From NCBI GenBank assembly GCA_900095095.1, contig FMBT01000299.1, positions 598,221 to 662,220 of the forward strand: a DNA stretch of 64,000 nucleotides, given 5' to 3'. This DNA is from Fragilariopsis cylindrus CCMP1102. Lineage: Eukaryota > Bacillariophyta > Bacillariophyceae > Bacillariales > Bacillariaceae. Shown here one piece after another: positions 41,934 to 62,496 of this stretch. Every line of letters begins with the position of its first letter. Position 1 is the first letter of the stretch. The position numbers and the translations under genes were made by a program. A model generated the notes under the pieces. That model searched no databases. It was not told the origin of the DNA and was given only the letters and a program-made list of their open reading frames with translations.

Positions 41934-43572
41934 ATGAATTTTTTCGAGTGATTACTTTATTTCTTGCCATACATGTGCATGCAGCAGCTATGTCTGAAAC
42001 AACCAAAGAAACTAGCTTTGTGGAGGATACAGATTTTTGGGTAGGACTTGTTGAAGAAACAACAGACAGTTACATGATTCCAACCGGACAACCTTCACTC
42101 AAACCGATCCCAAAGTCGCCCGCACCATCTAACGCACCAATTCGCCCCACGATTGCTCCAACAGTGCCTCCAATCCCTAGTCCAACTTTTAATCCTACTG
42201 AGGTCCCTACTACAGTACCAAGTGGACCTCCAAGTGCAATACCCTCACCTACTCCTTCGTTTGTACCCATATCGGTACCGAGCGTAGCACCCTCGTTTTC
42301 TTTAGCTCCATCGGAATCAAGTGCCCCGACATCGACACCATTTCCAACATCAACGGCGAGACCTACTGCATCAATTTCCCCTTCAGGTATTCCAAGTTCA
42401 ATTCCCAGTGATGGTCCATCTTTATCTCTTAATCCAACGTCCTCAAGCAGACCTACCATGTCCCCAGGTCCGACTATCACGCCTTTACCAAGTATGTCTC
42501 AAGGTCCAACTATTACGCGTTACCAAGCATGTCCCAGGTCCGACTATTACGCCTTTACCTAGCATGTCCCAGGTCCTACTTTACCCCTTTACCAAGCATG
42601 TCCCAAGGCCCTACTATCACGCCTTTACCAAGCATATCCCCAGGTCCTACTTTTACACCTTTACCAAGCATGTCTCCAGGTCCAACTATTACGCCTTCAC
42701 CAAGCATGTCCCCAGGCCCGACTTTCACACCTTTACCAAGCATGTCCCAAGGTCCGACTATTACGCCTTTACCAACAACTTTACCTCCTCAACTCACTTG
42801 CATCATTTCGGCTGATATCACTTGCGAGAATGAGGACGGTGACGCCTGTGATTTCGCCAGCCCGATTGGAGAGCAATGTATCGGAAGTAGTGCTAAAGAA
42901 CTTCGGTTCTTATATACGGCAAACTCTTTCTGTATGGGGAACAATACACAAGCAAGTTTTGGCTGTGTTGACGAGATCATTACGGATGGACCCCGTTCTT
43001 CGACGGTGTATATTAGCATAAATCTTGGCGATGCCGTATTCTATGAAGGTATTGTCAACGAAGGAAATGTGTTTCGTGTTCCTATCGTTGATGATACAGA
43101 TTCAATTATCATTGAGATCAGTAACTTAGATGAAAGTTTCGGTCCAGGAATTCTTCTTCAGACAATGGTGATGAGTGTACAGTGTCGAGAGGAAGATTCG
43201 CTAGTGCTTTTGGATACTTTTGGAGGCCTGCAACTTGTTGGTTATAGAAACGAAGAGCAAGGGTTGAAATCTGTATTTGCCAATGTTTCTATTCGTTACG
43301 CTGCAGCCAACTTGGGGCGTCAAGATTTATCTTTAACCAGTGCAATTAAGACCACCCCTTTTGCGGAAATGGTATCAATTCTACCAAGTGATGAAAGTCT
43401 ACTAATTGACCCAGGTTTAAGTGAGACCTTCTCCGAACTCCTCGCTTTGAATCTAGCGGCCATTGCTGGGACAGAGCTTAATTTCTCTCTTTTTGTACAG
43501 GGCGATGATGCCATTACTGGTGGGGAGTGCGGGGACTCAGATACTTATACTCTGTCGATTCAACAACCATAA
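41934..43572 (+). CDS. secreted Pro/Ser/Thr-repeat protein with Cys-containing C-terminal domain
   Basis: A signal peptide is visible when the T run at 41939-41944 is read one base longer: Met at 41934 leads to the hydrophobic VITLFLAIHVHAAAMS. The mature region is a long series of P-S-x-x-P units, then about nine copies of a 12-residue unit (PGPTITPLPSMS and variants). The C-terminal domain (about 42790-43572) has spaced Cys residues in ADITCENEDGDACDFAS, EQCIGSS, SFCMGN and SVQCREE. Proteins of this design are common in diatoms and are thought to be cell-wall or extracellular. A frame change inside the repeats (near 42520) is either an indel error or real repeat slippage. The partner is unknown. 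Confidence 0.7.
42458..42780 (+). repeat. 36-bp minisatellite, about nine units
   Basis: Units begin ATGTCCCCAGGTCC or ATGTCTCAAGGTCC and end in CCTTTACCAAGC. They encode the 12-residue Pro/Ser/Thr motif. One or two units are shifted in frame or shortened near 42510-42600. Confidence 0.85.
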
Positions 43573-44142: not shown

Positions 44143-45464
44143 TTAATTATCAAGGCCCCCGAAGATGTCATCATCATCGTCGTCGTCATCACTATCATTT
44201 TGATTATTACTATTATATCCCTTATTTGTTGTATCTTTCACGTAAGATGCTTCGCCCTTTGTTGTTGTTGTTGTTGTCGTTGATTGTATACCCCGAGTTC
44301 GTCCTACTTGTTCTTTCATCATTTCGTCTCGAATAATATTTCGTGACTTAAAGACTAGATCGATTTTATTCATGACGTCTTTAGACAACAAGATGGGAGA
44401 TTTACTACTACTACCACTGCCTACTCTTGATAAGGTATACTGTCGTGGTATTTCCCATGCTCTCGTCGAATCAGAAGGGTGACCATCGATCGCTAGCGAG
44501 TACATTGTACGTTGTAGTGTTTTTCCGGCCATACTACAAGTATTTTCATCTTCTGCTGCTGTATCAGAGCTAGAGCTTGCAGTTCTATTATTATTATTAT
44601 TATCATAATTATCATCCCACGAAGAAGAAGAAAAAGAGCTGATATCAGAAGTTTTCAATTTCAAAACCCCATTGATATATTCGACCATACCACTGCTTAC
44701 AATAATGGAACGATAATCATCAAGGTTATTACTATCTTTGTTGTTGTTGCTGCTGTTGCTGTTGATACTATCAATGCTATTTTTTGAAGAAAGAAAGTCT
44801 TTTAAGATTAATTTAGCTTCATTTAAGCTCGGTAGTTCCTTCCTTATTTTGCAATCATTCGGCGGCACCTCGTCGTCATCAACAGTTGAATATATATTTT
44901 CCGTAGACGTTGCAGTCATTGATTTTTCGTCATCGCGCCCAACTAATTTAAGACCCGCCGCCTGTCGATCTTTTCGTGCAAGTGCAATATCAAGTCCTCT
45001 TTGTTATGAGGTATTATTAAAAAAGCATCAGAAGATGATGCTGGTGCTGTTGTTCCTGGCACTGCTGTTCCCCCTTCTCGTCGTTCTTTTGCTCGATCTC
45101 GATATCGTGACGACAAATCTTCCTCGATAGCCTTTGCAGTATCGTCATCTTTTTGATCGCGTTTGCCATTGCCATAATAATCATTATCATCAGGCTTTCC
45201 ACCTTTATTTCGTTGTTTCTTACCGAAACTTGTTTTACCACCACCACCCTCATCTTCGTCATCACTATCATTGTATCCACCACCTCGTGTTCTTTTTTTC
45301 TTTTTTTGGAACTCTTCTTCCACTGCTTTACGGGCTATCGCTTTACTTGAACCCGGTTGGTTATGGGTCCGTACCAAATCCTTAAAGGCATTGTTATCCA
45401 TTATGTTGCTACCAAGTTGCGTTGTTGTTGTTGTTGTTGTTGTTGTTGTGCTTTTTCGTAACAT
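44143..45464 (-). CDS. IK: RED/IK-like spliceosome protein
   Basis: The N-terminal part has YRDRAKERREG, the core of the RED N-terminal domain, and a downstream RGLDIALARKDRQAAGLKLV that resembles the conserved GLDFALLQKVRxE helix of RED. The middle holds TARAWEIP-like (STRAWEIPRQYTLSR) and DVMNKIDLVFKSRNIIRDEM segments, and the end is Asp-rich. RED works with SMU1 in the precatalytic spliceosome. Many Thr, Ser, Asn and Asp runs interrupt the sequence. A frame change lies near 44980-45010. The start codon is 100 bp from the 3' end of the retroelement, so the promoter may now include element sequence. The call rests on two short blocks, so it is tentative. Confidence 0.55.
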
Positions 45465-45564
45465 TTGAAATGGGAATGTGGTAACTTCGTGAGTATTGAT
45501 GGGGAAATTTGCTAGCGAAAGAGCGCACGTAAAATCGTGAAATAAAAATTTGATGAAAGGGGAG

Positions 45565-45862
45565 CTAAATTAGTGACACAAAGACCAATAATTTAGCCTA
45601 AGTTAGGTACCAGACAATCCGCTCGTGATTCATTCCTTGTTATATTTTACCAATGTCGTAACACAGATCTATGGGTCTACTCTCTTCTGGAGCAGACAGT
45701 CTTCCGATTCTTCCTATGGTTGATTGTTGGGTCGTGAAACGACTCGGGACTGAATCATAGGTGAACTATGGTGGCGCTGGGGTCCGGCGTCAAATTTCCC
45801 TTTTTGAGGGGAATTTGGCTTCGAATCCGTGTGCTACTATGAATACTGAAAAATGCTTTCTC
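45565..45862 (-). repeat. split direct repeat B2
   Basis: 298 bp, the distal end of the element. It matches 46063-46360 without visible difference. It starts CTAAATTAGTGACAC and ends AATGCTTTCTC on the plus strand. Confidence 0.95.
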
Positions 45863-45884
45863 TAGGAGTGAGGTTTGGTTGTGG

Positions 45885-46062
45885 GAAAGCATATACAGTA
45901 AGGTTACTTCAGTCGAGTCTTTTCGACGACATAGGTCAAATCTGACAAAGAATGAGAGTGTAATAGGTGTATACTATTTCACTCTGCCTCCGCCTTCCTT
46001 GCGCGTAGGTTGTACGCGCAGGAGGCGAATTCATCACTGCACTTGCTGGACCTGCGTGTCAA
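45885..46062 (-). repeat. split direct repeat A2
   Basis: 178 bp matching A1 at 55680-55857. It abuts B1 with no gap and is separated from B2 by 22 bp (45863-45884). It contains the hairpin at 45997-46022. Confidence 0.95.
45997..46022. promoter_or_regulatory. perfect-stem hairpin in the A repeat
   Basis: CCTTGCGCGTA pairs with TACGCGCAGG around a 5-nt loop GGTTG, giving ten pairs including one G-U. The same hairpin is in A1 (55792-55817) and in copy 2 (about 62682-62707). It is a candidate recombinase site or RNA structure; this role is inferred. Confidence 0.6.
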
Positions 46063-46360
46063 CTAAATTAGTGACACAAAGACCAATAATTTAGCCTAAG
46101 TTAGGTACCAGACAATCCGCTCGTGATTCATTCCTTGTTATATTTTACCAATGTCGTAACACAGATCTATGGGTCTACTCTCTTCTGGAGCAGACAGTCT
46201 TCCGATTCTTCCTATGGTTGATTGTTGGGTCGTGAAACGACTCGGGACTGAATCATAGGTGAACTATGGTGGCGCTGGGGTCCGGCGTCAAATTTCCCTT
46301 TTTGAGGGGAATTTGGCTTCGAATCCGTGTGCTACTATGAATACTGAAAAATGCTTTCTC
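46063..46360 (-). repeat. split direct repeat B1
   Basis: 298 bp, identical to B2 as far as read. It joins A2 directly at 46062/46063, the junction expected of a circular intermediate. Confidence 0.95.
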
Positions 46361-46856
46361 CACAAACCAAAGCTACCGTAGGTGGCAAGGCCCATGATCG
46401 TGGAAAACCTGTAATCTAGATCCTCAATAACGTGGGTGTGTTAGTCCGCGTTAGAGGCGGGTCTAGATTGAGGTACGAGTATATAATAGTCGGACTGAAT
46501 GGAGGTTTTTCGTGTAATAGAAAATACTAGTGCTGGAATCTATGTAGTTCTAGAGTTGTTGCTGACTAGGTTATAGATGTAGTATGTTGTTGATCATTAC
46601 AGAAATTATATGTATTAGAATTGAATGTGGTTATAAACGAATATCTTGCTGATGTTGTTCGACAGTGGCTAAGCTGTGTCGTGAAATCAGAGTATTGTTG
46701 TTGACGTCTTATGTATTGCGTCAGTGCTTAAGTAAAGATGCGCTCGACGATGCAGACACGTGTGTCGATGCTTTCGTTGCGATCGTTGACTCTTTTGTAC
46801 AGAGTCGGTTGGATGAATGTGTTGTTGGTGGACGCAAATGGTGGTGCATTTGTGTC

Positions 46857-48242
46857 TTATGGAGTTTTGGAAACGATGACTGCTCGTTTCAATGTGACAG
46901 TCGTTCCTGCTCCTCCTCCAAAGATCTTTCCTCCGATGCGTTTGTTGCAGACGTCGCGTCTACCGGCTAGTAGGGTAGTATTTTTGACTTCCTCGTAGAA
47001 CTGATCTCTCATGATCCAAGTGTTTCGGACGCGTTGGTGTTTATCCTTCATATCAACGAAATCGTTGATGGTGATGAGCATGAGGATGTCGGGGAGGAAA
47101 AGTGCGTGCTCGTAACAGGTCCCACTGATTTTGGGGACTTTTGCTTCGCATTGCAAGATGATGACACAGTTACTTGGTGGGAGATTCCGTGGATCGCTGT
47201 AGAGACTGCCTCTGATTCCGAGGAGAATGTCATGGAGTTCGAATCCAACCCCATGTGTATCGTAGTGGTCTGCATCGTGGGTTGTGACAGTTTGGAGGTT
47301 CAAACGGTTGACGCGGGTTGCTGGATCGACTAGGTCAGCTTTGCCCTTTGCAATAACTGAGATTTGGTCTGGCGACAAAGTTGTGCCTACGATTTTGGTC
47401 GCCAAGGCGAAAATGCGTTGGAGGCGATTAACGCCGGAGTTGAGTCGTAGCCTGTATCCATGTCCAACGCGAAAAGCGTAGTATCGTTGAAGTGCCTCGA
47501 TGACTTCAGTTGGCTTGAACCACTTGTTGCTACCTTTACCGTGTCGCTTCGTGAGTCCAACCCGTTTTTCTTGACGAATAGGGCGGGCTGAACGATGGTG
47601 TTGTCCCACAGAATCGTCTGAACCGGATGAGACGGACTCAGCTGCGCTGTGGTAGTCGTAGTCCGAGGCGGAATACTCTGGAAAGTTGTTGTTGAGGTTA
47701 CGAGGTGGTACTCTAACGAAAGGGGCCTGATCCTGTCGAGGATGAGCGGCAGGAGTGACGTAACGTGGTGACGCGAATGCCTGGATCTGTTTGAATGCTG
47801 TTTCCATTTGTTCCGGTGTGAGTCCACTGAGTTGAGCCATGGATGCCATGGATTGCTGAGTTGGAACTGGAAACTTTGGACGTTTTGGTGGAGGTGTTGA
47901 TACCATTGTTGCAGAATTGGTTGAATTTGTTGATGATGGTGTAGAAGAAGTGTTTGTGTGAAGCCTCTTTTTTGGATTGTGAGCTTTCAGATTTGTTCTG
48001 ATTATCTGTAGTGGTCGTTTCACGTAGAAATTATTGATTGTTGTTTGTTTTCTCAAAGATGATTTCACTACCGTCGTTGATTCTCGTGTATTCGAAGTGT
48101 CGGTTGTTGTGATTTCCACGTTGGAGTCGTCCGTTTCGGCAGATGAATCTGAAATTGGAGCGACTCCCGCGGAGGCGGGTAGCGATAACGCTGCTGGGGC
48201 TTGTGCTGGTTTAGAAATTGGCGCTGGTTCTTTGTTGTTCAT
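46857..48242 (-). CDS. extra retroelement ORF of unknown function with a PIP-box motif
   Basis: A 461-residue frame follows the recombinase gene, overlapping its end by about 32 bp. The first 210 residues are low-complexity (Pro, Ala, Ser, Thr) and hold QTTINNFY at residues 66-73, an exact Q-x-x-I-x-x-F-Y PCNA-interaction consensus flanked by basic residues (LRK before, VKRP after). A proline- and lysine-rich stretch (PPPKRPKFP) may be a nuclear signal. The C-terminal half looks folded: KWFKPTEVIEALQRYYAFR, then GVNRLQRIFALATKIVG, then FYEEVKNTTLLAGRRDVC. No SGNH hydrolase motif, seen in some Ngaro elements, is found. A recruitment role at replication forks is inferred from the motif only. 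Confidence 0.7.
   Translation of the reverse strand: MNNKEPAPISKPAQAPAALSLPASAGVAPISDSSAETDDSNVEITTTDTSNTRESTTVVKSSLRKQTTINNFYVKRPLQIIRTNLKAHNPKKRLHTNTSSTPSSTNSTNSATMVSTPPPKRPKFPVPTQQSMASMAQLSGLTPEQMETAFKQIQAFASPRYVTPAAHPRQDQAPFVRVPPRNLNNNFPEYSASDYDYHSAAESVSSGSDDSVGQHHRSARPIRQEKRVGLTKRHGKGSNKWFKPTEVIEALQRYYAFRVGHGYRLRLNSGVNRLQRIFALATKIVGTTLSPDQISVIAKGKADLVDPATRVNRLNLQTVTTHDADHYDTHGVGFELHDILLGIRGSLYSDPRNLPPSNCVIILQCEAKVPKISGTCYEHALFLPDILMLITINDFVDMKDKHQRVRNTWIMRDQFYEEVKNTTLLAGRRDVCNKRIGGKIFGGGAGTTVTLKRAVIVSKTP
48024..48047 (-). other. PIP-box coding segment
   Basis: Encodes QTTINNFY, the canonical PCNA-binding peptide pattern, within the extra retroelement ORF. Confidence 0.6.
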
Positions 48243-49496
48243 GGCTATAGGTTTTATGAGCCTGTTGGTAAAACGGTGCTAAGAGTACAAAGTAGGTTGT
48301 ATCAACCAACGTGGAATATCCGTTTTGGTTTTGTTGTGTGATGGTGTAGAAATCGCGTAAAATGTAACCGTTACTAGTTTTGCACCGTTGTTGCGATACG
48401 GAGTTCTGGCGAGTTGATTGGCTCAAACGTGCGTCGTATGTTTTTGAAATTAACGTGCTGGCCATCTGTTTAGATACGCCCCTTGAAAAAGCGGCGATTT
48501 GTTCGTGTATGTATATGAGGAATGTATCGCTGCTCCAGCGTCCCATTTTTTGTATGGTACGATCCGAAATTCCGTTTAGATGCATGGCTGTCGCGCCGCC
48601 GGCTCGCAGGCTATGTGAGCTGACTTCGCTTGGGTGAATGCCTTGTCGATCAAGGCGTAGATGTGTGACTGCTTTTTGTAACGCGCGTGTCATGCACCCA
48701 GTGCGTAGCGCTCGTCCTTTTGGATATTTCTTGTCGAAAAAGGTGCTTATAATTGTAGCGGTATCTGTTGTATGCGCTAATATATGTTTTATTTGACGTA
48801 TTAAGGCATGAACTGGGCAAGGTGGTGTATCTGTTACATCTTGGTGAATTGTTTGTGCTCTTTTGCCATTCTTTTGATTCGAGATATGGAGGGTAGCCTC
48901 TGTTGCTTCACGAAATAAAACGTCGATTGGGAGTGAGTGCGGTAGGATGGTATTGTTGTTCCAAAATGTTACGTCACAGACTCGAAACTGTTTAGTTCGT
49001 CGGCGTTGCTTGGGATCGACGAACGTGTATTCTCCTCCTCGGAGTAGGTAGTGAAAAGCTATGGTGGCCATATTTCCTACTGTTTGTTGCTTGGGTGCAT
49101 TGGACGACAGACCCGAGAGTACTAAGTATGTTGGGACAGATAACGGTATAGCTAATTTCGGTTTTGACGGAGGATCTTCGCGTCGGTAGCTTTCAAGAGC
49201 TGGCCGATTTTTTTCGTATACTTTCCTTGCGACGTGACCAAGGGACTAGGTTCATGGTCCATTTGGAACATCGTGCTGATGGCGCGAAGCGCCACCTCGA
49301 CTGTTTGGGTGCGAACTTGCTGAGTTCGTCTAGAAACGCCTCCGGAACGCACATGGTGGGCGAAGGCAGCCAGCAGTTCGACTCGTTGAGGTGGAGTGAG
49401 AGCACGCATTTTTGGGTCAAGTTTGGGAAAGTTGAGTCCGAGGAAATTGCACCAAGCCGACCAAAAACGCCTTTTTTCGTTGGCAGTTGATTCCAC
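48211..49496 (-). CDS. tyrosine recombinase of the retroelement
   Basis: The catalytic segment (49071-48211) carries the full set of residues: the first Arg in LLRGGEYTF, then HSLRAGG (His-x-x-Arg), Trp in GRWSSD and the nucleophile Tyr in FLIYIHEQ. The N-terminal core-binding domain is at 49496-49152 (RRFWSAWCNFLGLNFPKLDP, and RTQTVEVALRAISTMF), linked by REDPPSKPKLAIPLSVPTY across a one-base frame change at about 49184 (loss of one C in a CC run would explain it). The architecture matches recombinases of DIRS, PAT and Ngaro retrotransposons. It would integrate the circular cDNA. Confidence 0.9.
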
Positions 49497-51379
49497 GATG
49501 CAAGGACGACGGAGCGTTCAACATCTCGGAAGAGATCTTTGATAATAGATTGTCGTGAAATTGGAACAAAGTCCAGAAGTTTCCCTGAGGAGGAGTGAAA
49601 GTTTTTGTAAAATAATCGAGGAATTGTGTAGGGTTAGAAACATGCTGCGTGAAGCGACGTCCGCCATAATATTGTAAATTCCTGAGATGTGGTCGATTGC
49701 GAGTAGACCCGATTGTTGATGCTGGAGTCGAACTGCTAAGGCTCGAAGTATGCGTGAAGCAACCGGTGATGTGCTGGTGCGCATTTTGTATATCCAAGAC
49801 ACTGCTGGTAGATTGTCGCACCAATGGCGATGCTGGAGTGTGTAAGAGTGTCGTTGTCCACGATGCTTCTAGGACGAGCCCGTGGAGCAGGATGCCCATT
49901 AGTTCTAGATCGGAGATGGTTAGGCGGCCTTTTCGATTTGAGGAGGTGACGAGATTGTTTCGAACCTCTGTAGGCCATTCCCAGAACCAAACGATTGGTG
50001 AAATTTGGTTTGTTCCTCCGAACCATACTCCTCCTACGCCCCATTTTGATGCATCGACGAAACCTTGATACGAAGCTTTGTGCAACACTAATTCGTTGAC
50101 GTGTGTAGGGCGTTGTCCTAACTGTCGAATGAGTGCAATCCAATCCCTGAGGCAGAGTCGAATGTCGTCTGTCAATGTTACATGATGTCTGTTGTGTCGT
50201 TCTGCGATGGCGATGGCCTGGTCGAGAGGACCTAGAAGTGGTTTGCCACATGGGATTGCTATCGATGTGAATTGGAGTTTGCCGTGAACTTTTTGGAAGT
50301 CTCGTGTTGGTACTCGTTTGGATTTTCCTCGCAGTATACGCTTGACTTCGGTTCGTATAGTTCTGCCTTTGTTTTCTGGCAGTTCTATAGTTCGTGCGAT
50401 GCCATCGAACAACCATCCTAGGATTTCCTTCCTTATTTCCCAAGTGCCTTCGGCAATGAGTTTTTTAATGGAAACTGGTGGACCCATTGCACTGTTGGTG
50501 ATTTCTGGTGGTGGGAAAACGTCCGTTATTGCGCTGAGGATTGTGCGTGAAAATCGGAGCAGATGATCTTTGTTTGTGCTTTGAATGAGGCCGATGAAAT
50601 CATCGATGTACACTTCGAGAAGGTTGACGAATTGGCGCTTGGAACGTTCTGTTGTTGGTGGAGGGACTGGACTTGGGACGGTGTTCCAATCGATGTCCAT
50701 CATGATGTCCTCCATAGGCTGTGCTGGGACCGGAGTATGGTTGTCGAATTTTTCCTGTGCAATGTCGCGTGCCGTTTCGGTTGCTGCACAGAAAAACGGG
50801 GGTGATTCTCCCCATCCCATTTGTAGGGCCTCCGGTATGACCAACTGGATTGGATCTGATTTTTGACCACCTGGAAGGAGTAAGCGGAAGTTCCAGGCGT
50901 CGTCGCTGTTAAACACACATCCGCCAATACCCGTCTTTGAGGTCGACTTTCGTGAACAGAAATGGTGTTGTGGTGTCGTGCGATGTTGCCATTGCCCAAA
51001 TGATGCGTGGGATGACGTTGCCGGAGTTCGTACATGGCATGCTGTGGGCTAAAGATTTGTCGGAAGTTTCGTTTTACCGATTGTAGCTTTTTGCCGGTTC
51101 AGCGTGATTTGGAATGACAAATCCAGGATCATGCCGGTAAATACGAGACTTGTGCGGTACTGCAGCTATTGGTGAGACCTTTAAGTTAGGAGGGATGTTG
51201 TGTTTGATTTTGTCCCAAGTGACGAGGCGACAGCATCCGTCAGCAACTCTTTCGAGTGCTTCTTTACGACATGCTTCTGCTGCTCCTGGAGCTTCTGCGC
51301 TGGCATGGGCTCCTTTTTTCGATTGCTGCTTCGATTCGTTCGCGAGACCATTGGTCGCCACAGTCAACAGGGCAACCAT
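49417..51379 (-). CDS. reverse transcriptase and RNase H of the retroelement
   Basis: From the 5' side: fingers with LKVSPIAAVPHKSRIYR and ILDLSFQITLN, palm motif A with FTKVDLKDGYWRM, then the stretch DDAWNFRLLLPGG, then MGWGESPPFFCAATET, then motif C YIDDFIGL. The thumb has PPVSIKKL and RKEILGWLFDGIARTI. RNase H begins at GFVDASKWGVGGVWF, with SDLELMGILLHGL and, in a shifted frame, HISGIYNIMADVASRS. Frame breaks are at about 51134 (GG), 51052 (T run), 50912 (TTT) and 49823 (TT); each is one base in a short run, and each lies between blocks that align without gaps. The gene could be intact in the cell. Confidence 0.88.
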
Positions 51380-51875
51380 CGACTGCGTATCGGAGGAGGT
51401 CTGGACCTGCAGGGTGTGTTAAAACTTCATGACGCGGGAGCATGAGCCCCTTAAATTTGGTAACTTACTTTGTATTGGCGTGTGCCGGGTGGTTCAGTCG
51501 TTGATGGTCCTCCTCCTCGTGGCCGCAGGGGTGGAGGTGTTGCAGGTAGCTGCGCTGGTGTAGGCGTAGGTGGTGCTGTCGTAAGCTGTGAAACATGTAT
51601 TGCTCGATGGCGTGCGTGGTCTATGATTTCCTGAGTGGAAGAGTTTCGTGTGGCAGCTAGTCGATTGAGTTGTTCGTTTTCCTCGAAGCCCGTTGTTCGG
51701 AATTGCAGGAGATGTAGCGAGTGTTGTGCTGATGTGAGTATCTCTGACTGTTGCTAACCCGAGGTGCCGCTGGCCTATGTTCTAGGTTAGGGCGTCTTTG
51801 TTATAGAGCGTGAAGCAGAGTAGGAATATAAGAATAGAATAGATTTAGTGATGCAAAAAGTATTTTATAGGTAGT

Positions 51876-52966
51876 TTAGTATAGAAACGTAAAGAGATGT
51901 AAATACACGCGTACGCGTAGAGCAGCAAGATGTGTCTTACTCTGGAAGACCTTTGCGGAGGATGTCTCTGCCGCTGTTTCTGCAAATCCTGTAATTGTTT
52001 GAGGATGATCGCGTTTGCAGGTACTGCGGCAGCTACCTAGTAGTGCCCAGCGGATGCAGGTGGCGGTGTTGAGATTGAGTAGCGTTTGGGAGCGCTGCGT
52101 CGTCAGCAATGTCGCTTGCCTTTCTAAATCTAATATATTAGGCATACGGGCCTTATTGTGTGCCTTTTCCAATCGTTGATAAGCGTGGTCATGCCGTTTC
52201 CCATTTGACGAGTAACAGTGCTAGATTTGTTGGTTGCGTGGCTGGTTGGTGCGCCTTTGCCTGACCTTAACCTTGGGTGTTTTTGGACCAGGGTGTTCCT
52301 GGTGAGAACGTCTTTGTTTGCGCTGGTACGAAGAGCGAAGGACGCGTTTGTGACGTGTTGAGATTGTTGTTTCGGATACCCTCGATGAGGAATTGAAATT
52401 TAAGGTCGGTAACTGTCCTTGGAGTAGTTGGCGTTCGCTTGTAGTTGGCCGAAGAACTGTTCGCTCCGCGTGTGAGCTGGAATAGGCATTCTGCACCGGA
52501 CGGTGGTGCGAAACTGGTTGGTGTTCGTAATGCTGATTTCCCTCATACAGTGCTAGAAGGCTGCCCTGTGCGAGGTTGACATAAGGGCATCTGGGAGCCA
52601 CAAAAAATCATTGACCAATGCGCATGATTCGATGGTAGAGGTGGTGCCGGAATGCGCCATCTGGAATTTTTGGACGCCCGAGCGTGTTTTGTCAATATCC
52701 GAAGTTGTTGGTGAATCGGATTGTTCGTTGATGGATATCTGATGAGACATCATCTCAATTTCCCGGCGATCTCGAGGTACGAATGCCATAGGACCTAATC
52801 CTAATGTTGGTTTGTCGCTTTCTAGGTTCACCGGCTTGAAGCGAAAGTTGATGATGGTCTCGATCAAATCGTCGTGGAGGCAGGTGATAGTTTCGGGTGC
52901 TTGTGTATGAGATGTTGGAACATCTCTTCGTACGACGTGCGTGCGTCGGCTTGTTTTTGCAAGCAT
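51876..52966 (-). CDS. gag/pol linker with a Cys/His zinc-binding motif
   Basis: Three segments in different frames (52966-52553, 52601-52221, 52172-51876). The last contains CIRWALLGSCRSTCKRDH, spacing C-x8-C-x3-C-x3-H, a putative nucleic-acid-binding finger like those preceding RT in similar elements. The middle part is Arg/Gln-rich. The region from 51876 to 51400 is Pro-rich in translation. It may be the C-terminal part of gag or the N terminus of pol. Confidence 0.55.
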
Positions 52967-53008
52967 TGAGTTTAGGCCAAAAGTAATTGTTGTGATTGTT
53001 AAGGTAAT

Positions 53009-54505
53009 CTACGTCGTTTGGATGTACGTTTGCCCATGCAAGGACGCTAAACTGTTGCATGCCAAGAAATTCTTCTTGGTTTCGTCAGTGGCCGATGTAG
53101 TAGGTGAACCGATCATGGCATTGAGAATGTTCCACTGGTTCATTTCTGATGTTGTTGGTGGACGTTGAGTGCACAACTCGCTGAGTTCTTTGAGTTTATC
53201 GGCCGCGCTCGATGACGGACTGGAGCCAAAGGGACTCAGGCTAGAGCTTGCTCTGGTGGAAGTGGTGAAAATGTTCGGTTCACGTGACCTGAAGGTGGAG
53301 GTGCCTGTGCTGTGCCGATTGATAGAAGGTGGTCCCGAGTGAGCTCCCCATGAGTTTCTTGGAGTTTGAGTCCAAGGATGGGTCCCAGAATTGTTGTTGT
53401 AGCTGTTGGAATCCATGGCAGCGTAGTTCGTGCGTGCTGTGAAATGTTCCGACGCTAGTGGAGGGCATTCGAGGTTGTCGCTGGTGTTCCATTGGACGCA
53501 CCTGTTTGGGTAGCGTCCCTGAGAACGTTGCTCGTTGTAAGGAGACGTGGTACTTGGTCGGCGGGTGTGTTGCCGGTCCTGATTGTTGCGACTTGCGTAT
53601 GCCGGAGTGACGTCTTCGATGTCGGAGTCGTCGTCTGCTGGCTGTGGTGGACGTTCAGTTTGAGCTTGTGGACGGTCCTCAGTAACGGCGGCGTTATCTG
53701 GCTCCATTCGGATGATTGGGTTGAATTCCTTTAAGAGTGCAGCGACAAAGACGTCGTGAGCATCATCTTCATCGACGAAGGCATCAGAGATGTCTCGGTA
53801 CTTCTGGTATGCGATTGGATCGGCAAACTGTGGCAGAATAGTAGGAGAGAGTTCGATTGCACTTCGAATTGTGAGTGAGCTGGTTTTAAGGCAAGCTGCC
53901 TTTGCCCAAGCTTGGATCATGCGGACATTGCCGTCCTTGATATCCTTCAGGGCATGGTAGAATTCATGAGGATGGCGAGGGGTGGCGTCCTCGTTGAAAG
54001 CGAAATGCAAGTACTCCGTTCGGAGTGGGGCAATGCGAAGACCACGGCGGAGGCCGTTGGCGCATGATGTAGGGACAAAAAGTTTTGTGTCTTTTTGGGT
54101 GCTGACTTTTGCTAACTTCATAGGGATTTGCATCAGGTCGTCGGTGGTGAATTCGACGAGTTTCGGAGTGGACTCGAGAGTGATGGCGTAACGTTTGTCA
54201 CCTTCAACTCCTACGATCATCATCGCTGTTACCACTCCTGGTTCGTGTTGGAGCATAGCAACGCAAATGGATCCGGTGTTCCACCAAGCATCCGAGACGG
54301 GGAAATGTTCCGAGTTTGTTTCGAACGACGCTGTGTTGAACAACGCTGTGTCCTGTGCTGGGCGATGTGCCTCAGACAAAAGGAGGGATGCAAGTGTGTT
54401 TTGAAGAGACATGATTGCTAAGAAAACGTTGATGTTGTTTGAGTTGCAAAGAAGGTTTTGATTTGAAGTCAAGTTTGTTTTGTGACTAGAAGGAGACCGG
54501 AACAT
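53009..54505 (-). CDS. gag-like protein of the retroelement
   Basis: A 498-residue frame starting about 1.35 kb from the 5' end. The N-terminal 290 residues look globular (VVTAMMIVGVEGDKRYAITL, IQAWAKAACLKTSSLTIRS, FVDEDDAHDVFVAALLKEFN). The rest is low-complexity, Ser/Asn/Arg/Gln-rich. There is no recognised domain; the position and composition fit a structural protein. The same start codon begins at the last base of the window in copy 2. The start might instead be the internal Met about 31 codons in (MSLQNTLASLLL). Confidence 0.65.
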   Translation of the reverse strand: MFRSPSSHKTNLTSNQNLLCNSNNINVFLAIMSLQNTLASLLLSEAHRPAQDTALFNTASFETNSEHFPVSDAWWNTGSICVAMLQHEPGVVTAMMIVGVEGDKRYAITLESTPKLVEFTTDDLMQIPMKLAKVSTQKDTKLFVPTSCANGLRRGLRIAPLRTEYLHFAFNEDATPRHPHEFYHALKDIKDGNVRMIQAWAKAACLKTSSLTIRSAIELSPTILPQFADPIAYQKYRDISDAFVDEDDAHDVFVAALLKEFNPIIRMEPDNAAVTEDRPQAQTERPPQPADDDSDIEDVTPAYASRNNQDRQHTRRPSTTSPYNEQRSQGRYPNRCVQWNTSDNLECPPLASEHFTARTNYAAMDSNSYNNNSGTHPWTQTPRNSWGAHSGPPSINRHSTGTSTFRSREPNIFTTSTRASSSLSPFGSSPSSSAADKLKELSELCTQRPPTTSEMNQWNILNAMIGSPTTSATDETKKNFLACNSLASLHGQTYIQTT

Positions 54506-55679
54506 TTAATAGGTTTGAAATGAACGACGGAAATGCTATGAAAGTCGTGTAGATTAACGTAATACAAGTAAAATTTCGGTGGAATACTAGAGTGTAAAAG
54601 AATATTTTAAGTAAATCTTTGTCAAATGTTGTTCATTTGAGCGTTAGGGCAAGGAAATATAGCTCTAACGGAAGCGTTGGTTCCGTTTGCGTGATCTAAT
54701 GCGTTTGACGCTACCGTTGGTTCGTATGTAACCTGTGACGGAGTCGAGAGTGCACAGAAAAGGTGCTCGTTCCCTATATGGTTGTCGCAAATGTTGTTGC
54801 AATGTTGTTGTACTTAGAACATTCGTGAATTTGAAATAAGCGGCATATAAGGATTCACTCCGGCGTTGAATTTGTACGGTGGCGTTGAATTTATCGTACG
54901 CTGGTGTCGAGCGTTGGAATGGAAGTTTGATTCCGGCATTGTCTCTTTCCCGTGGTAGCAGGTGGAGAAACCACATGTGATTTGTGAGCGAAAAGGTGTT
55001 TCGCGTTTTGCCTTATCATGTTAAAAGGTGATCGTAACGATGAGTTGTGCCTGACGGCGTGTGGCGAGCCAACCGTAAATGATAAAAGGTATGAGTGGCT
55101 GGCGCGTGCTGATAGTGTTTATAGCCCGTAGTGCCGGCTGTTTTGAAGGTTCGTCGACGTATGCGTCGAGATCCCTAAAGCGCGCTTGTGTGCGGTGGTG
55201 TTTCCGTTGTTCCTCGTATCGTGGTAGTAAAGTGAAAGTGAAAACTAAAAATGACGTGCCGGTGGCAGTCCTTAAGTGCAATTGGCTGGTTTTTGGTGAC
55301 GTGAGCGCGGCGTGCGCTGTCACAAAAATTTGGACCGAATCGTATTTGTTTACTGCTTTTGCATTGTGATTGATGCGAGAGCTGATGGTGTCGTTGCACC
55401 TTTGGTTGTCCTCTCGGTGTGTACCGGTGTGAGGATTATGAGACCGGAGGTCGATTCTTGAACAAGACGATGGCAGACCGTTGCTCCGCTGTGGAGTGTG
55501 GTGCTATGGCGCTGTCGTTGTTCAAATGTTTGTGTTGTACTGTCTACAACCCACCCAAGTATTGATTTTCGCGTCGTCGTGGCTCTGGTGTCGAGTTTTT
55601 TGACGGAAATTGGTGGTTCCATTGATCTGTGTCCTGTTGTGAAGTGTGTGTTGATACTCTTACTGTTGGTGTAGCCCAA
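54506..55679 (-). other. retroelement 5' leader with three short conserved frames
   Basis: About 1.17 kb between A1 and gag. Frames at 55679-55350 (109 codons), 55323-55021 (100 codons) and 54976-54665 (103 codons) recur in copy 2. The first includes a stretch resembling an RT thumb: MEPPISVKKL then RKSILGWVVD. The two copies differ mainly in run lengths (for example TTTT versus TTT before GTGCACTC). It may be an untranslated leader with residual coding similarity, or short ORFs. Confidence 0.55.
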
Positions 55680-55857
55680 GAAAGCATATACAGTAAGGTT
55701 ACTTCAGTCGAGTCTTTTCGACGACATAGGTCAAATCTGACAAAGAATGAGAGTGTAATAGGTGTATACTATTTCACTCTGCCTCCGCCTTCCTTGCGCG
55801 TAGGTTGTACGCGCAGGAGGCGAATTCATCACTGCACTTGCTGGACCTGCGTGTCAA
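55680..55857 (-). repeat. split direct repeat A1 (5' end of copy 1)
   Basis: 178 bp matching A2. The outermost minus-strand bases are TTGACACGCAGG. It is followed outward by AGTTGAGAATAA. Confidence 0.95.
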
Positions 55858-56390
55858 AGTTGAGAATAATTTGTCGAAGATTGTGCGCGATGAGTCACGA
55901 TTTTTAAGAAGGCGACTGGAAATAGAGAACTATTTTGTTGTTGCTGTTAATTTTTGTTGTTGTTGAAAAAAATTGTGCGAAAGAAGATTTAGAAGATGAG
56001 AAGATGTTGGTGGTTGATGAAAACTAAAAAGAAATATGGCATAGCAGAAAAATTGACTGGAAGAACAAAATACATCTCTCATCTACGAAATACTCTTGCC
56101 GATAGCTCAATTTTTTGATCGCTTGTGTGAGGTGCACTTATATCTATATATATCATATTTTTTATATAATATTCCATTGTACGTAGTTTACTGCTACTAT
56201 CAGTGAGCTATTGTCAGTATAGAAGCTGTTCATACCAGTAAAAATGTGTGTGACTTATATTTTGAATCACCTGAGAGGTAAAGGTATTAGAAAATTATTA
56301 GCTAGTATTCTAGTATCTCTACTTTTCCTACATTTGTAGGAGCGAATCCTTCAAGAAGTACTCTTCAGTGCCTTGTTTTTGAATCATATA
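55858..56390. other. spacer between the retroelement and the Gln-rich gene
   Basis: 533 bp, AT-rich. It forms the junction of the element's 5' end with host DNA and the 3' flank of the next gene. Nothing else is recognised. Confidence 0.4.
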
Positions 56391-59300
56391 CTAGGAAGTC
56401 CTTGAAAATGGATCAAAAGAATTAGCTGGATTTAGATTCATTTGGTGGGTTTGATGCTGCTGCTGTAAATGCTGTTGGTGTAGTTGATTCTGCTGTAATT
56501 GCTGTTGCTGTATTTGCTGCTGCTGCTGATGTAACTGTTGCTGTATTTGCTGTTGCATGTGCTGCTGTTGTAATGGGCCTCCGGAAAATTGTTGACTCTG
56601 CAAGGCATTTCCTTGATGTTGGTGTGGGTAAGTATTTGCCCATTGGCCACCAATATTCGCTACTATCTGTTGCTGCACTCCACCTGTCAGCTGGTCAAAC
56701 ATGATCGGTTCTTGTCGTGGGACAACCATAAATTGTTGATGCTGCAATCCGTGGTACCCGTTCGCGACAAGCGTTTGTTTTCCAGGGGCAGGTGACGGGT
56801 GTTGGTCAATCGTTCCTTCAGTAGCTCGTATGGTAGATGGTGCCATTCCAAGCACAACAAACGGATCTTGACTTACGAATGTGTTCCCCATTTCAGACAT
56901 TGGGTTCATACTATCAGATGTGAGAGAACGTTTGATAGGCAATGCCTCAAGCGAAGGAGGTGTGGGAAATGAGATGACTGGCACCGTTGATTTCAGTGGA
57001 TCAAAATCGTGGAGACTTTGACTGTGTTTGTGGCCAGTAGGTTTCGGTGTATTCTTGGGCGGTCGAAGAGGAGGTATGAACGGCGGTGCCCCTGCCGAAG
57101 TCGTCCGACTTCTTACCTCAATTTCATTTCCACCACCGTTGATTCTATTCAAATTCGGGCGAGTTGTTGTATCAGGTGCATTCTTCGATTCATTTTTCTC
57201 TTTTTGATTGGTTATAAAAAGTTTTGATTTTTGTGGTACTGGTGACGACGGCAACATCGCTGTAGAAGTATGAGATATTGAGTTTCCTGTTACCGCATTT
57301 GCATCACTCGCGATTGTGTCTCTTATTGGCGAGGATCCATTCACTGTAGTGATTTTTTTGTTACAAGTTTCATTTTTTCAGGAGACTTACTTGTAACGGT
57401 ACAACTGACGTTTCCGTTACGTAATTTCTCGGAGTTTGATTCAGTATCTTGACGTGGGCCTTCTTTTTCTTCTTTTGCCTTTTTTCCATTCTGCTTCCCA
57501 GCTTTTGCTGTTTCACCCTTTGCATCACGTAATTTCTTTCTGAGATCCAAGTTTCGCATCTCAACCTTCTCTCGGAGTACCTGTTCATCACGTAATTTCT
57601 TATCTAGCTCCCTATTTTTAGCCTCCAAGTCTTTATTGTTATCACGCTAAAGAAAACGAGATCAAAACATGATTCATGTGAGTATAAACATTAAAGAAAC
57701 ATACGAAAGTACAGTACACATGTAAAATCTCACCAATAGTTTCATATCCGTCTGAAGCGACTTGATGCATTGATCAGCCTCTGTCACCTCCGTTTTCATC
57801 TGTTCCATAAGGTAAAAACCTTTCCAAGTCCCACTGAGCTCCATGTGCCATTGCTACCAATAGTTTGGGGTACTTTGCCACTTCTTCCTTGGACGGTTTT
57901 CTTTTTTTTGCTCACTGTTTTTAGTTGATGTGGTGGTTGTTGCTGCTGTTTGTCTGTATTTGTGGAAGTTGGTGGCTTGAGGATCGGTGCAATTGGCAAT
58001 GAGGAATTTAGAGATGACGAACGACTGTGCATCGGCGACGGGACATTTAATTGTGAGGTTACACCCCCAGGAGTAGGAGGTGGAGTAGGCACGTTATAAG
58101 ATAGAGAAGTCGGAGGTCCATTCGTAGAAAAAGGTATCTGTTGTTGATGGAGATACTGTTGCTGGAAATCGTGCTGTATCTGAGCTACCGGAGCAACAGA
58201 TATTGGTCCTGATACCGTATATACAGATGGATCTATTGTATGTTGGACTTGTGGCAGATTTTGAACGTACTGTTGCTGATTCTGAGGATAAGATTCTACA
58301 GGGATTTGCGAAAATTGTACGTTGTTGGACGCGACATTTTGATTGTTTTGCATCGGTGCTTGGAGAACTGCTGCTGATTATCTTGGGCTGCCGACACCGG
58401 AAAATGAGTATAATTCTGTTGAACCTGTTGCTGTTGCGAGATTTCGTACACTGCTGCATGGTAGTAACAGGCTGGATCACAACCGGTTGCATAGGAATCT
58501 GAGAAACATTCGACTGTTGTATATTTTGATGGATGATAGAAACTGGCTGATTTTGTAATGGTGATACTTGTTGATGTTGCTGTTGTTGAAACTGCTGCTG
58601 CTGTTGCTGTTGTAATCGTACTGCACTGATATCATTTTCGTTTACTATCAATGCTCCTGTAGTAGCTTGGATCTGAAGGTTTGGCAGTATAGAGCCAGGG
58701 TCTTTTACATTGGTTACGAAAAATCTGCCTTTCTTTTTTACCGTTGGCGCACTTTTTCCATCAAAAGTTTGTGTGCTGCTATCCCCGCACTAGTATCCCT
58801 CGGAGGCATAGGCGATTGACTTCTAGAAGAAACACCAGCTGGCACACATTATTAGGCATAACCGGTGTCTCTTGTAACAAACTGAAGCGACCCTTCTTTT
58901 TCTTCACATAATGCATACCTCCGCTTTGTAATTTTATTATGGGTATCGCCCCAACCATCCCAATAATCTGATCTCCTGCTTCTATTTCGTTTTGATGCTT
59001 GTATTGTATCTGTTGTATATGTTGTTGTTGTTGTTGATGATGATGCTGTTGCTGCTGCTGCTGTGGTGGCTGTTGTTGTTGGGTCGTACTGTAATTATTT
59101 TGGGTACTATCATGCTGGGACGAGTCGACCGGAAGGGTTACAACACTGGGAATCTGAGGAATTTGATAATATACTGTCTGTTGTGGTTGTTGTGACCACT
59201 TGTTGCGCTTGAGTAGATTGGTCATAATTGTATGCATTTTCCTGCTTATCCGACTGTTGCGGTGGCGGCGGCTGCTGCTGCTGCTGAATTGCGGTTCCTA

Positions 59301-60047
59301 AAGTTCCGTTCTGGTTTGTGCATTGTCCTGACACGGAAGACGATTCTATTTTTTGTACATGAGATGTTTCTATATGCTGTTGATGCTGAGATGTTGATGG
59401 CAATGACCTCGTTTCAATCAGTGAAGGATCATCCTTTTCCATTCTATTCTTGGGAGCGTCGCTACGACCAACGCTACTATCGAGGGCGGAAGGAAGAGAC
59501 CCTATAGATCCCGTATCAAAAGTTGAAACAGGTGTAGATAATGCACGTGATGAGTTCTTGTCTAGTGGTTTTGGACGAGAAGTATTCAAAGACCACTTAT
59601 ATTACTTGTGGTCGTAGTATGGTTAGCATTTGAATCGCCATTAACTTTATTTGATTTTCCCGCATTTGTCGACGTCGTCGTCGTACATATAGCTACAGGA
59701 GGATCATCCCCAAGGTTTTGTGGTTCCTCCGAAATTTGATCTTCCGAAATTTCCGTTAATGATACTGTTGCCTCGCTTGACAATAGAGCCTCAGCGGTCT
59801 GAGTCTTTTGTCCACATGAATCCGAACTTGCTTCCAAAGGTTGTTCTGCTGAAGGGTATTGATGCGAATTGTTGTCGTCGGAATTAGTATTTGTCTCAAC
59901 TTTACTCACTATGAAAACGCGCTTCTTCGGTTTTTCCACTTCTATACTTTCTTCTGTTATATCCTCACCAGCTAATTTTTCTGTTGTATCATCATCCGTT
60001 CGGGAGAACCGGAGGAGCCGGATGAGAGTATCGGAATTGCAGTTCAT
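56391..60047 (-). CDS. large Gln-rich regulatory-type protein with repeated KKxRF motifs
   Basis: Coding segments at 60047-59586, 59589-59110, 59237-58779, about 58750-58094, 58353-57796, 57780-57734 and 57646-56391 form one gene with one clear intron (57647-57733, joining DMKLL to RDNNKDLEAKNREL) and several small frame changes. Repeated short motifs are KPKKRVFIVSK (about 59910), VKKKKGRFSLL (about 58890), VKKKGRFFVTNV (about 58720) and KSKLFITNQ (about 57210). A coiled coil covers about 57830-57480. The C terminus is extremely Gln-rich. Such composition is typical of transcriptional or signalling scaffolds. RFxV peptides bind the conserved C-terminal domain of OSR1/SPAK kinases, but only RFFV fits exactly. 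No catalytic domain is seen. Confidence 0.55.
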
Positions 60048-60588
60048 TATTTTTAAAGAAGGTTTAACAGAATAATGATGTTCGAATTTTATGAATACAA
60101 AATAAAGTATCACGCTTCAAACTTCGGACCCGAAACTTTCTCTTCTTTAAGGCCAGTTTCGCAGAAAATGATGGGGGTAGTCTGTAACAGTTTCAAATTA
60201 CTTTACTAGTGTAGCAAGAGAATGTTATTGCATCACCTTTCGAGTGAGCAACACGATGAGAAATTCTATTTTAATTGTTCGTCTATTTTAGAGCATTTTC
60301 TCGGAAGCTTCTACTATAACTGTTACGGTAACGTGCGTTAAGTATGACTACAAGAATGTAAATGTACTACTAGTAGGAAAATTAATTTACTTTCGTCCGT
60401 ACCTCGCTTCGCTCATATCATATTTTCTCAGTCCATCCATTCATTCATTATATTCATTCACATTAACTCTTTCGAAACCAAAAAAAAAAAAAACTAAGAT
60501 AACATTGTTTATTTTCTTGTTTTAAAAGACAGCAACTCCACAAAAAGATAGCCTAACTAGCAATATAACAAAATAGAAAGATATAAAG
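60048..60588. other. divergent promoter region
   Basis: About 540 bp, ending with a poly-A run (60480-60493). No gene is seen. Confidence 0.35.
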
Positions 60589-61682
60589 ATGGCGGCTGAA
60601 TTTGACGTTTCTGGATTTTCTGCGGTGGATAAGTTCTTTGGGAACGACGAAACGAAAAATAAATCGACAATATCATCCAGTAGTGCCACGAAAGAAGGAC
60701 ACGTAGTTGGCAGTAAAGGTAAACGACGAAGAGGAGGTGTTGGTACAAGTACCGATGTTGATGATGCTTCTAAAAAGTTACTATCATCCGATGCTCTAAG
60801 CAAAAAAATATTGAATGTTGGAAGAAAAAGACGATCTCGTGAAGATAATGTTGATGACGACGAGGAGGACGAGATTATATCGACGGTGGTGATCATGGCG
60901 TTAATGACGACGACGACGAAATGATAGACGGTGGACGAACGAACATCGTAGAAAAATCAGCTTTATCAAAGAAGGGAAAGAGTGTCAGGATCATCTGATA
61001 AACTAACGAATGATCAAGCTATAGTAGGAAGCAAAAATCCAAAGAAAAAACTAGGCAAAAAGGAACGACAAAGACAAAAACAACAAGAGGAAACATCAGC
61101 AGCAGCAACACAGGTGGAAGTATTTGAACCAGTCGCTGAAAATTCAGCTCATGAACAGGACGACGAAACCAGGGATTCCGCTGCTGATGATACCAAAGAT
61201 TCTGCTGGATTAATCACTCACAACAACACCGAAAAATACCCGGGCGCCAAAAAGAAACGTAAGAAGGTACGGTCACGACAAAAGAATATTTATAAAGATA
61301 ATCGTACTAAAGATGAAAAACCTGCACATCTAACTAGGGGAAACCCTAACTACCAAGGACGACCAATGACAGAAGCTACACGTGAAAAATTGAATTTACC
61401 TCCACCCAAAAAAAATACGTCCCAGTTACAACAATAGTAGTAAGAACCAAGATATGGTAATACTTTATTTGTTATCGATCGAAGTCCAGATTCACCTGTC
61501 GTGGTGGAGGAGATGACGTTGGAGTGAAGCTGGCTATTGATGACTTTATGAATACCGACGATACAAGTCCATCAAATACAAATAAAGAGAGCAAAGACGA
61601 CGATAATAAGGACTTAAAAAAGAAGAAACGTGAAAAGTCTGGTGTGAAGAAGAATAAGAAAAATCGCTTCAAGAATTGTAGA
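60589..61682 (+). CDS. basic nucleolar-like protein of unknown function
   Basis: It starts MAAEFDVSGFSAVDKFFG and has acidic and Lys-rich stretches. Its best conserved-looking block is KKRKKVRSRQKNIYKDNR, then THLTRG-like AHLTRGNPNYQGRPMTEATR. The frame changes near 60880 and 60985, giving segments 60589-60924 and 60982-61437. A further Lys-rich end (LAIDDFMNTDDTSPSN, KKKREKSGVKKNKKNRFKN) follows at about 61530-61682 in a third frame. Composition suggests an rRNA-processing or nucleolar protein, but no family is named with confidence. Confidence 0.5.
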
Positions 61683-61922
61683 TAATAGTATAAAATATAT
61701 AAATATACAGTAATACTATATATTGTAATATAGTATAGCATAGTATAATATAAAAATTTGAGTCAATCATTAGCATTTATACTGTAGAAGTATTTAGTAT
61801 AGAAATTACTTTTTATATCTGTTATCACAGTACATTATTCCCTTCCTATTAATTTATCCTGATTTTGATTTATTCCTTCAGCGATGGATTTGATTTCATT
61901 CATTTTCTAGTTTATTTCCAAT

Positions 61923-62496
61923 TCAATCCAAATCAGAATCATCAGAATCGGAATCATTAACAGCTTTTGTTGCCTCTAATTCTAATCGTTCTTTTAACAT
62001 ACCAACAATAGCTTTTTGTGTCCTTCGTTCTAATTTTGCTAATTTATCACTAATATCACGTTTCAAATCCCAATTAATCTTTTTAGGAGCCATACTAGTA
62101 ACTGCAACAGTAGCTGCTGCTGTTGTGTTATTGTATCTTGTTTCGCCTCTAACAATGCATTCTGAAGTGCTTTAGAGGATGATACCGGGGCCACTACTTG
62201 TGCTGCATGTGATGACGATGACGTATCGTTGTTGTCGCCCGTTTTTTGTCTCTTTGATAAGGGATCCGATGATGATTGTTCTTGATCTTGTTCTTGTTGT
62301 TGATTGTTTAAGGATTTGTCATTCGGTGCATAATTACGAAAAACAACAACCTTTTTCGTTGTTGGTACAACAAATGCTTCATCTCCATCTCCTTTGTCGT
62401 TGTTGTTGTTGTCATCGTCATCGTCATTACGCGCTTCTTTGACGCGACCGGCACGAGCTGCTAATGCCTTCAGTTTCGCTTTCCTTCATCGGCCAT
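61923..62496 (-). CDS. CCDC12: CCDC12/cwf18 pre-mRNA splicing factor
   Basis: The N-terminal KLKALAARAGRVKEAR parallels the charged N terminus of CCDC12. VVVFRNYAPNDKSLN matches the LRNYVPEDEDL block, and the C-terminal APKKINWDLKRDISDKLAKL followed by ERRTQKAIVGMLKERLELE matches the WDLKRD...KRTQRAI...RERL signature. The end is acidic (NDSDSDDSDLD). The family is part of the NineTeen-related complex of the activated spliceosome. Two frame changes are needed: one just after MADEGKR, where an AAA run needs one more A (62474), and one near 62130. An Asn/Asp-rich and Gln-rich insert lies between the blocks. The start codon lies 145 bp from the 5' end of retroelement copy 2. Confidence 0.78.

Follow-up and report, generated by a model that had tools for sequence, protein, structure and literature searches.

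A large, very probably Ngaro-like split-direct-repeat retrotransposon family in the diatom Fragilariopsis cylindrus

Split-direct-repeat (SDR) retrotransposons that carry a tyrosine recombinase are a known type of element, and the described systems differ in size, gene content and host. According to the available part of PMC8547959, the Ngaro element of the stramenopile Cafeteria burkhardae is about 6 kb long and present in 10-25 copies per strain, with the order A1-[ORFs]-B1A2B2, a gag-like ORF, a reverse transcriptase-RNase H (RT-RH) region and a tyrosine recombinase. The Ngaro-like families of Xenopus, as excerpted from PMC9210276, have repeats of the same kind (in DIRS-53_XT, A of 236 nt and B of 152 nt, each 100% identical) and, beyond the recombinase, a fourth ORF that is an SGNH hydrolase. 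PAT, TOC3 and Kangaroo also combine split direct repeats, RT-RH and a recombinase and, in the portion of PMC4157794 that sets out a structural key for DIRS-order groups, encode a methyltransferase. For diatoms, DIRS elements are tallied in Phaeodactylum (PMC5859163) and Gypsy/DIRS1 is annotated in Chaetoceros tenuissimus (PMC8613185); the available parts of both papers give counts and coverage but no structure.

The element studied here lies on the minus strand of a 64,000-nt stretch of F. cylindrus CCMP1102 (contig FMBT01000299.1, positions 598,221-662,220; hereafter the window), running from 55857 to 45565 of the window over 10,293 bp. We conclude that it very probably represents a recently active, Ngaro-like SDR tyrosine-recombinase retrotransposon family of ~10.3 kb, for which we propose a circle-recombination cycle. 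It resembles the Cafeteria Ngaro in repeat order, copy number, gag-like ORF, probable RT-RH, recombinase and stramenopile host and differs from it in length (10.3 kb versus ~6 kb), in an extra ORF (ORF5), in a frame change inside RT and in a 22-nt A2-B2 spacer that the accessible text of PMC8547959 does not describe for Cafeteria. The Xenopus families share with it an ORF after the recombinase, but ORF5 has no Pfam match; unlike PAT, TOC3 and Kangaroo, it has no methyltransferase that we could find. Large size and a few unusual built-in features thus set the family apart within a known element type. The details that are new are the 21-22-nt spacer, the +1 frame change within RT and the extra ORF beyond the recombinase, and they add structure to diatom tyrosine-recombinase retroelements that are merely counted in the seen portions of PMC8613185 and PMC5859163.

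Repeat architecture and classification

A direct-repeat search gave the order A1-ORFs-B1-A2-(22 nt)-B2. The A repeats (178 nt; A1 at 55680-55857, the element's 5' end, and A2 at 45885-46062) are 100% identical, as are the B repeats (298 nt; B1 at 46063-46360, adjoining A2, and B2 at 45565-45862, the 3' end), which confirms the two repeat pairs that a prior sequence-only reading had placed here. The repeat order of that reading stands, with the correction that a spacer at 45884-45863 separates A2 from B2. It had also called the element about twice the usual size on account of a long leader and an extra ORF. The size is correct, but the length of gag, which reaches 847 aa, also contributes. Chance origin of exact repeats this long is excluded. 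No inverted pair of 25 nt or more occurs in 44500-57000, so the inverted termini and internal complementary region of DIRS1-like elements are absent there. The outer boundary of A1 falls on the identical base in 13 of the 13 copies listed, while the flanks vary from copy to copy (8 distinct A1 flanks among 13 listed, 9 distinct B2 flanks among 9 listed). The 3' block is held over at least 789 of its 796 nt at eleven places in the genome, and all 10 listed copies that retain it have B1-A2-spacer-B2; the deleted copy C184 lacks it. The sequence-only reading had raised nested unrelated insertions as the counter-case. We examined and rejected this origin, since the same repeat order recurs in those ten copies and in a second family, whose RT is 59% identical to that of the first and which follows the same plan. 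One scan each of viral_contigs and genome_contigs yielded no relatives.

The SDR, DIRS-order assignment made from the sequence alone is further supported by a recombinase match to PF00589 and by an empty related site, a check that had been suggested for it. At C184/C185 the empty sequence reads straight through with no target duplication; this is a single site, the copy there is internally deleted, and identity to the empty homologue is 83%. For C60 and C166, corresponding searches turned up no empty site. An LTR retrotransposon was rejected on the lack of an LTR plan, the lack of an integrase (rve) in the scanned ORFs and the empty site without target duplication. The prior assignment to "PAT/Ngaro type" can be narrowed to its Ngaro side. 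The Dam methyltransferase profile PF05869, which detects the DIRS methyltransferase according to the part of PMC3783388 available, matched none of 18 ORFs scanned and nothing genome-wide, with an E. coli control positive; together with the structural key in PMC4157794, as far as the excerpt goes, this makes the element Ngaro-like by structure and not PAT. A PAT-type element of the DIRS group whose methyltransferase is lost or hidden seems quite unlikely to us. Split direct repeats are common to PAT and Ngaro, and the gag carries a zinc-finger-like motif, read by eye, of a sort given for Pat1 in the consulted portion of PMC4157794, but no Dam match was found in the scanned ORFs or the genome, and the internal repeats follow the recombinase, which matches the Ngaro plan, though some PAT forms may be similar.

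Two smaller features of the repeats were noted. A candidate att-like inverted repeat, GTGTCA-N10-TGACAC, spans the B/A joint at 46056-46077 and is weak, as equally good ones arise in 1.7% of shuffled ends; by eye, no obvious target motif was seen in the flanks of the listed copies. Two sub-threshold Rfam matches to mir-3170 in B (30.4 bits; gathering cut-off 98) were read as chance.

Coding regions and the frame change in RT

The window copy is frame-broken, with none of gag, RT-RH and recombinase contained in a single frame, a correction to the earlier description of RT, RNase H and a recombinase with all catalytic residues. A 5' leader with short ORFs only (54506-55679) precedes the gag-like ORF1 (51941-54505), which is open here for 498 aa (54505-53009) and for 807-847 aa in other copies. 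Its C-terminus has the zinc-finger-like C-x8-C-x3-C-x3-H motif mentioned above, and it has a homologue in the second family (22% identity over 906 columns, E 4e-55). RT is divided into an N-terminal half up to motif A (VDLKDGYWRM; 50912-51753) and a part with motifs B and C (YIDD) and RNase H (49620-50911); other copies have a 641-aa open frame covering RNase H and the rear of RT. These motifs were read by eye, and profile matches to known RTs are weak: of eight PDB matches with E no greater than 10, six are to reverse transcriptases, the best (E 0.0036) being to a chain named Polymerase, with single-stretch E-values beneath the matches of 0.13 and 0.29 at best. RVT_1 reached E 0.16 only, in the second family. 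A low-confidence RT structure model (pLDDT 42) gave 425 Foldseek matches up to E 10, none under E 0.12, and 50 matches listed of the 425 are HIV RT; PDB searches with RT or recombinase as single sequences gave chance matches only. The putative RT-RH ORF is present and conserved in both families, which sets the element apart from a Crypton (a recombinase without RT). The recombinase (48380-49632) occupies two frames in the window and a stop-to-stop ORF of 420 aa in other copies; it has the catalytic R, K, HxLR, W and Y, read by eye, and scores 28.0 bits against PF00589 (cut-off 27.1), with the 420-aa ORF of another copy (26.7) and the second family (18.7) below the cut-off. Beyond it lies ORF5 (461 aa, 46857-48242), weakly similar to a 600-aa ORF in the second family; its structure model (pLDDT 27) was unusable. 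Pfam gave no significant match for RT, gag or ORF5 among the scanned ORFs of both families.

Within RT, all 11 fetched copies change frame at GTT-TAA-C (GTT TAA (C), 50909-50914), a candidate +1 frameshift site. It is absent from the second-family copy read, where gag-RT is one continuous ORF. We propose that RT could be completed by a +1 frameshift here, and that a short intron may be spliced out to link gag with RT, the candidate being an intron-like GTAAGA...TTAG (51754-51940; or ...ATAG ending at 51775) at the gag-RT junction, whose GTAAGA is kept in 11/11 fetched copies (with small deletions towards the 3' side in C648). A frameshift within the RT core would be an unusual expression strategy. 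Amino-acid changes among copies are fewer than neutral in gag, RT-RH and recombinase. Against about 3.2-3.4 non-synonymous per synonymous variant expected, distinct variants number 34:42 in gag, 2:7 in RT upstream of the frame change, 5:17 in RT-RH downstream and 6:11 in the recombinase, in a count that excludes C605 and C184 and takes only the longest aligned piece of each copy. Purifying selection thus acts on both sides of the frame change. The alternative that the family is dead or non-autonomous, its copies sharing the frame change in RT and being moved by the enzymes of another element such as the second family, would fit the frame change in 11/11 fetched copies and the potential enzyme source in that family's continuous gag-RT ORF. 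We regard it as unlikely: the two families share only 48% identity at their ends, and C635 and C523 differ downstream of the site by 13 synonymous and no non-synonymous changes in the aligned RT-RH part, which suggests downstream translation.

The assembly contains many indels, and the frame change might on that account be a systematic sequencing error. This is very unlikely, since the site is the same in 11/11 fetched copies, yet 227 of 313 distinct indels relative to the window occur in a single copy, and the T run is only three long. Thirty indels but only 14 substitutions separate the window copy from all other fetched copies that cover the sites, 26 of the 30 indels falling within element positions 2931-4971, and this excess looks like poor local assembly. 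A second copy of the family, cut by the contig end, lies on the plus strand at 62642-64000. Both it and the A1-side flank recur on other contigs, so that flank may be mis-joined. Over the ~3.5 kb compared, C706, C532, C523 and C605 carry it letter for letter although each has a different B2 flank, so the two flanks of the window copy may not belong together; the 5' parts of these four and of C774 are letter-identical or nearly so, and the five are not fully independent. The assembly is indel-prone, and apparently chimeric at these repeats. A solo remnant was considered at C631 and rejected, since B1 is still present there in diverged form (72% over 170 columns).

The A2-B2 spacer and a proposed replication cycle

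The A2-B2 spacer (21-22 nt; 22 nt here, at 45863-45884) is the best-conserved block of the terminal region between families: overall identity of the terminal regions is 48%, and the top-scoring windows, at 91%, are those on the spacer. A spacer pattern search (28 matches, none in the reversed control) selects intact spacers, so that identity there is by construction; those identified independently of it are the spacers of the first family, of C795 (through a DNA search) and of the second family (through a protein search). We propose that the spacer may be a cis-acting signal. Conservation merely through recent shared ancestry of the families, or recombination at that point, is a lesser but real possibility; in its favour, both families reside in one genome, and against it, identity is 48% over the surrounding termini and 91% at the spacer. 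Evidence for a hairpin at A2-spacer-B2 is mixed, with z-scores of -2.4 and -3.5 (first and second family) for 14-nt flanks and -0.6 and -1.1 for 40-nt flanks; the hairpin is absent in C795, and C631 folds differently. The end of A2 plus the spacer is complementary to a stretch before B1 (the best of 2038 windows in the first family, the second-best site in the second), which we treat as a lead only; taken by itself, the spacer has its best pairing partners within the RT-RH coding sequence, again in both families. No tRNA genes, which would be primer candidates, lie in the window.

In the cycle that we propose, RNA would be transcribed from A1 to B2, and RT and RNase H would make a circular cDNA whose B-to-A joining sequence would come from the internal B1A2 block. 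The recombinase would then open the circle at the B/A joint, where the B and A ends form an inverted repeat, and the opened circle would be exchanged with a genomic site without duplication of the target. To our knowledge, cDNA priming and closure in SDR retrotransposons have been modelled, not shown, and a short conserved signal at a fixed joint offers a concrete target for mutation in this question. A more speculative reading, which we hold to be doubtful, is that the spacer is a replication signal (primer-binding or circle-closing), that B1A2 is the counterpart of an LTR, SDR elements being circularly permuted LTR elements, and that the RT frameshift is a programmed +1 shift. If true, the SDR circle would be opened inside the repeat by the recombinase, and RT would be made via a programmed +1 shift in its catalytic core. 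Under the LTR-counterpart reading, the B1A2 block is immediately preceded by a purine tract, at the start of B, and immediately followed by the spacer.

Direct-repeat architecture, copies and assembly

Two direct-repeat pairs, each 100% identical, were the only ones returned by a repeat search of 44500-57000, exactly as the sequence-only reading had claimed, and the same search gave no inverted repeats of at least 25 nt. All lie on the minus strand: A1 at 55857-55680, B1 at 46360-46063, A2 at 46062-45885 and B2 at 45862-45565, with A2 directly adjoining B1 and a 22-nt spacer separating A2 from B2. PMC4157794, PMC6681497, PMC8547959, PMC9210276 and PMC3783388 supply the structural key and SDR descriptions; diatom elements named DIRS appear in PMC5859163 and PMC8613185, and PMC3145265 mentions DIRS/Ngaro-like elements of a brown alga, Ectocarpus. 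PMC3266345 lacks the words diatom and stramenopile, and our literature search, made mostly without subscription papers, found no earlier description of this element's family (family 1) or its spacer.

The 796-nt 3' block (B1-A2-spacer-B2) scored at 40 places in the genome (67.9 Mb, 818 contigs), 11 of which, the window's own included, retain 789 nt or more. We fetched 11 further copies, whole or in part. The start of A1 falls on one and the same base in all 13 listed copies, which have eight different flanks; the end of B2 is likewise constant to the base in the nine listed copies that have flank, every flank being different. As to the genome at large, PF03842 (silicon-transporter family) has 27 matches, two above 750 bits, which makes a diatom, or a silicifying organism close to diatoms, the likely host.

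Contig C306 ends with the window. The element's A1-side flank there is letter-identical on contigs C706, C532, C523 and C605 over the ~3.5 kb compared, while the B2 flank is distinct in each; C774 has this A1-side flank with small differences, and C166 and C648 have the B2 flank in common but not the A1 flank. During assembly, a single path through the repeat seems to have been used to extend the contigs, and the common ~3.5 kb is probably an assembly join. Because one A1-side flank meets differing B2 flanks, region 55858-64000 may not belong to C306. Within it, 62642-64000 is a second family-1 copy in opposite orientation, ended by the contig end, and 55858-62641 separates the two copies. Against all other copies covering each site, the window copy has 30 indels and 14 substitutions, and 26 of the indels fall within 2.04 kb. 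Its broken frames could reflect decay of this copy; most of them look like assembly error. On the other side of the element, nine units of a 36-bp tandem repeat (42457-42775) lie within a 379-aa ORF matching DUF7467.

Coding capacity and the RT frame change

Counted stop to stop, the other copies encode a gag of 807-847 aa, a 296-aa ORF whose last part is RT motif A, an open frame of 641 aa that covers the remaining RT and RNase H, a 420-aa recombinase and an ORF5 of 473-518 aa. Among these proteins the recombinase alone has a Pfam match near the cut-off: it scores 28.0 bits for the window copy, 26.7 for another copy and 18.7 for family 2, a related family in this genome. PF05869 (Dam) has zero matches in the whole genome. 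An RT profile built from four rows matched eight PDB chains up to E 10. Reverse transcriptases account for six of them: 7sr6, which carries the name Polymerase and is presumably HERV-K (E 0.0036), 4ol8, a reverse transcriptase/ribonuclease H that we take to be Ty3 (0.018), HIV-2 RT twice (0.076 and 0.12), Ty3 Gag-Pol (0.44) and a POL protein (1.5). A designed protein (0.047) and a dehydrogenase (1.1) make up the remaining two.

All 11 family-1 copies fetched share a frame change in the RT: the motif-A frame stops at GTT TAA, and RT resumes at the same place in the +1 frame. The copy on C648 has one extra T at this site, which may be another indel, and the frame change is absent from the family-2 copy read. 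Variants among family-1 copies are mostly synonymous on either side, with 2 non-synonymous (N) and 7 synonymous (S) before the change and 5 N and 17 S after it, where ~3.3 N per S is the expectation; in the aligned part after the change, C635 and C523 differ by 0 N and 13 S (chance under neutrality ~7e-9). This synonymous excess on both sides favours translation across the site, so that a programmed +1 shift, though unproven, is the best reading. At the gag-RT junction, all 11 fetched copies have GTAAGA and then TTAG downstream (187 nt in the window); candidate splicing at TTAG or an earlier ATAG would join the gag and RT frames.

Constraint on ORF5 is weaker: leaving C635 aside, its variants number 16 N and 18 S, and including C635 raises them to 126 N and 60 S. 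C635 differs from C60 by 119 N and 47 S in the ORF5 region, and represents either a mosaic copy or one with a decaying ORF5. Element positions 8000-9000 of this copy are ~15% diverged from the window, and the rest ~1.3%.

Element ends and target sites

Comparison of nine full copies, with the window as reference, gave three distinct substitutions in A1 plus the 3' block (974 nt), where 24 were expected, and 206 in the internal 8,318 nt; without C635, the ends have two, with 17 expected, against 162 internally. Such uniformity of the ends is unusual.

Empty sites lacking target duplication had been proposed as a check, and one came to light: the flanks of a deleted copy on C184 run continuous in the 83%-identical C185 (AAAATAAT followed by TACA), so no target bases were duplicated or lost there. 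Searches for empty sites of the C60 and C166 copies found none. Corresponding regions of C184/C185 and C60/C341 are ~83% identical on different contigs, and such pairs suggest two diverged subgenomes or haplotypes. The C341 and C60 loci have the same element end site in 83%-identical flanks, and their A1-side flanks are unrelated.

Related families and the A2-B2 spacer

Protein search placed near-full matches to family 2 (RT 59% identical) in eight places. Its copy on C81 spans 10,202 bp, with a 179-nt A, a 268-nt B, a 21-nt spacer, a single 1,760-aa ORF covering gag and RT, and a 600-aa ORF5. Between families 1 and 2 the recombinases are 53% identical (277 residues), the gags 22% (906 columns) and the ORF5 products 22% (119 columns, E 1e-4). 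C88 carries a third, more distant family (RT 31%), a tyrosine-recombinase retroelement whose recombinase is interrupted by ~1.1 kb; a 179-nt direct repeat begins ~75 nt past its recombinase ORF, and it thus has no ORF5 at that position.

Families 1 and 2 share 48% identity in their terminal regions (424 aligned sites), and 22-column windows on the spacer reach 91%, the top of all windows. A spacer pattern search gave 28 genome matches and none in a reversed control, and the A-spacer-B context was found in all ten of the matches fetched as well as in families 1 and 2. Matches on C90, C103 and C795, where B1 was not found in the 600-700 nt read upstream, may be solo A-spacer-B remnants; that on C631 retains a diverged B1.
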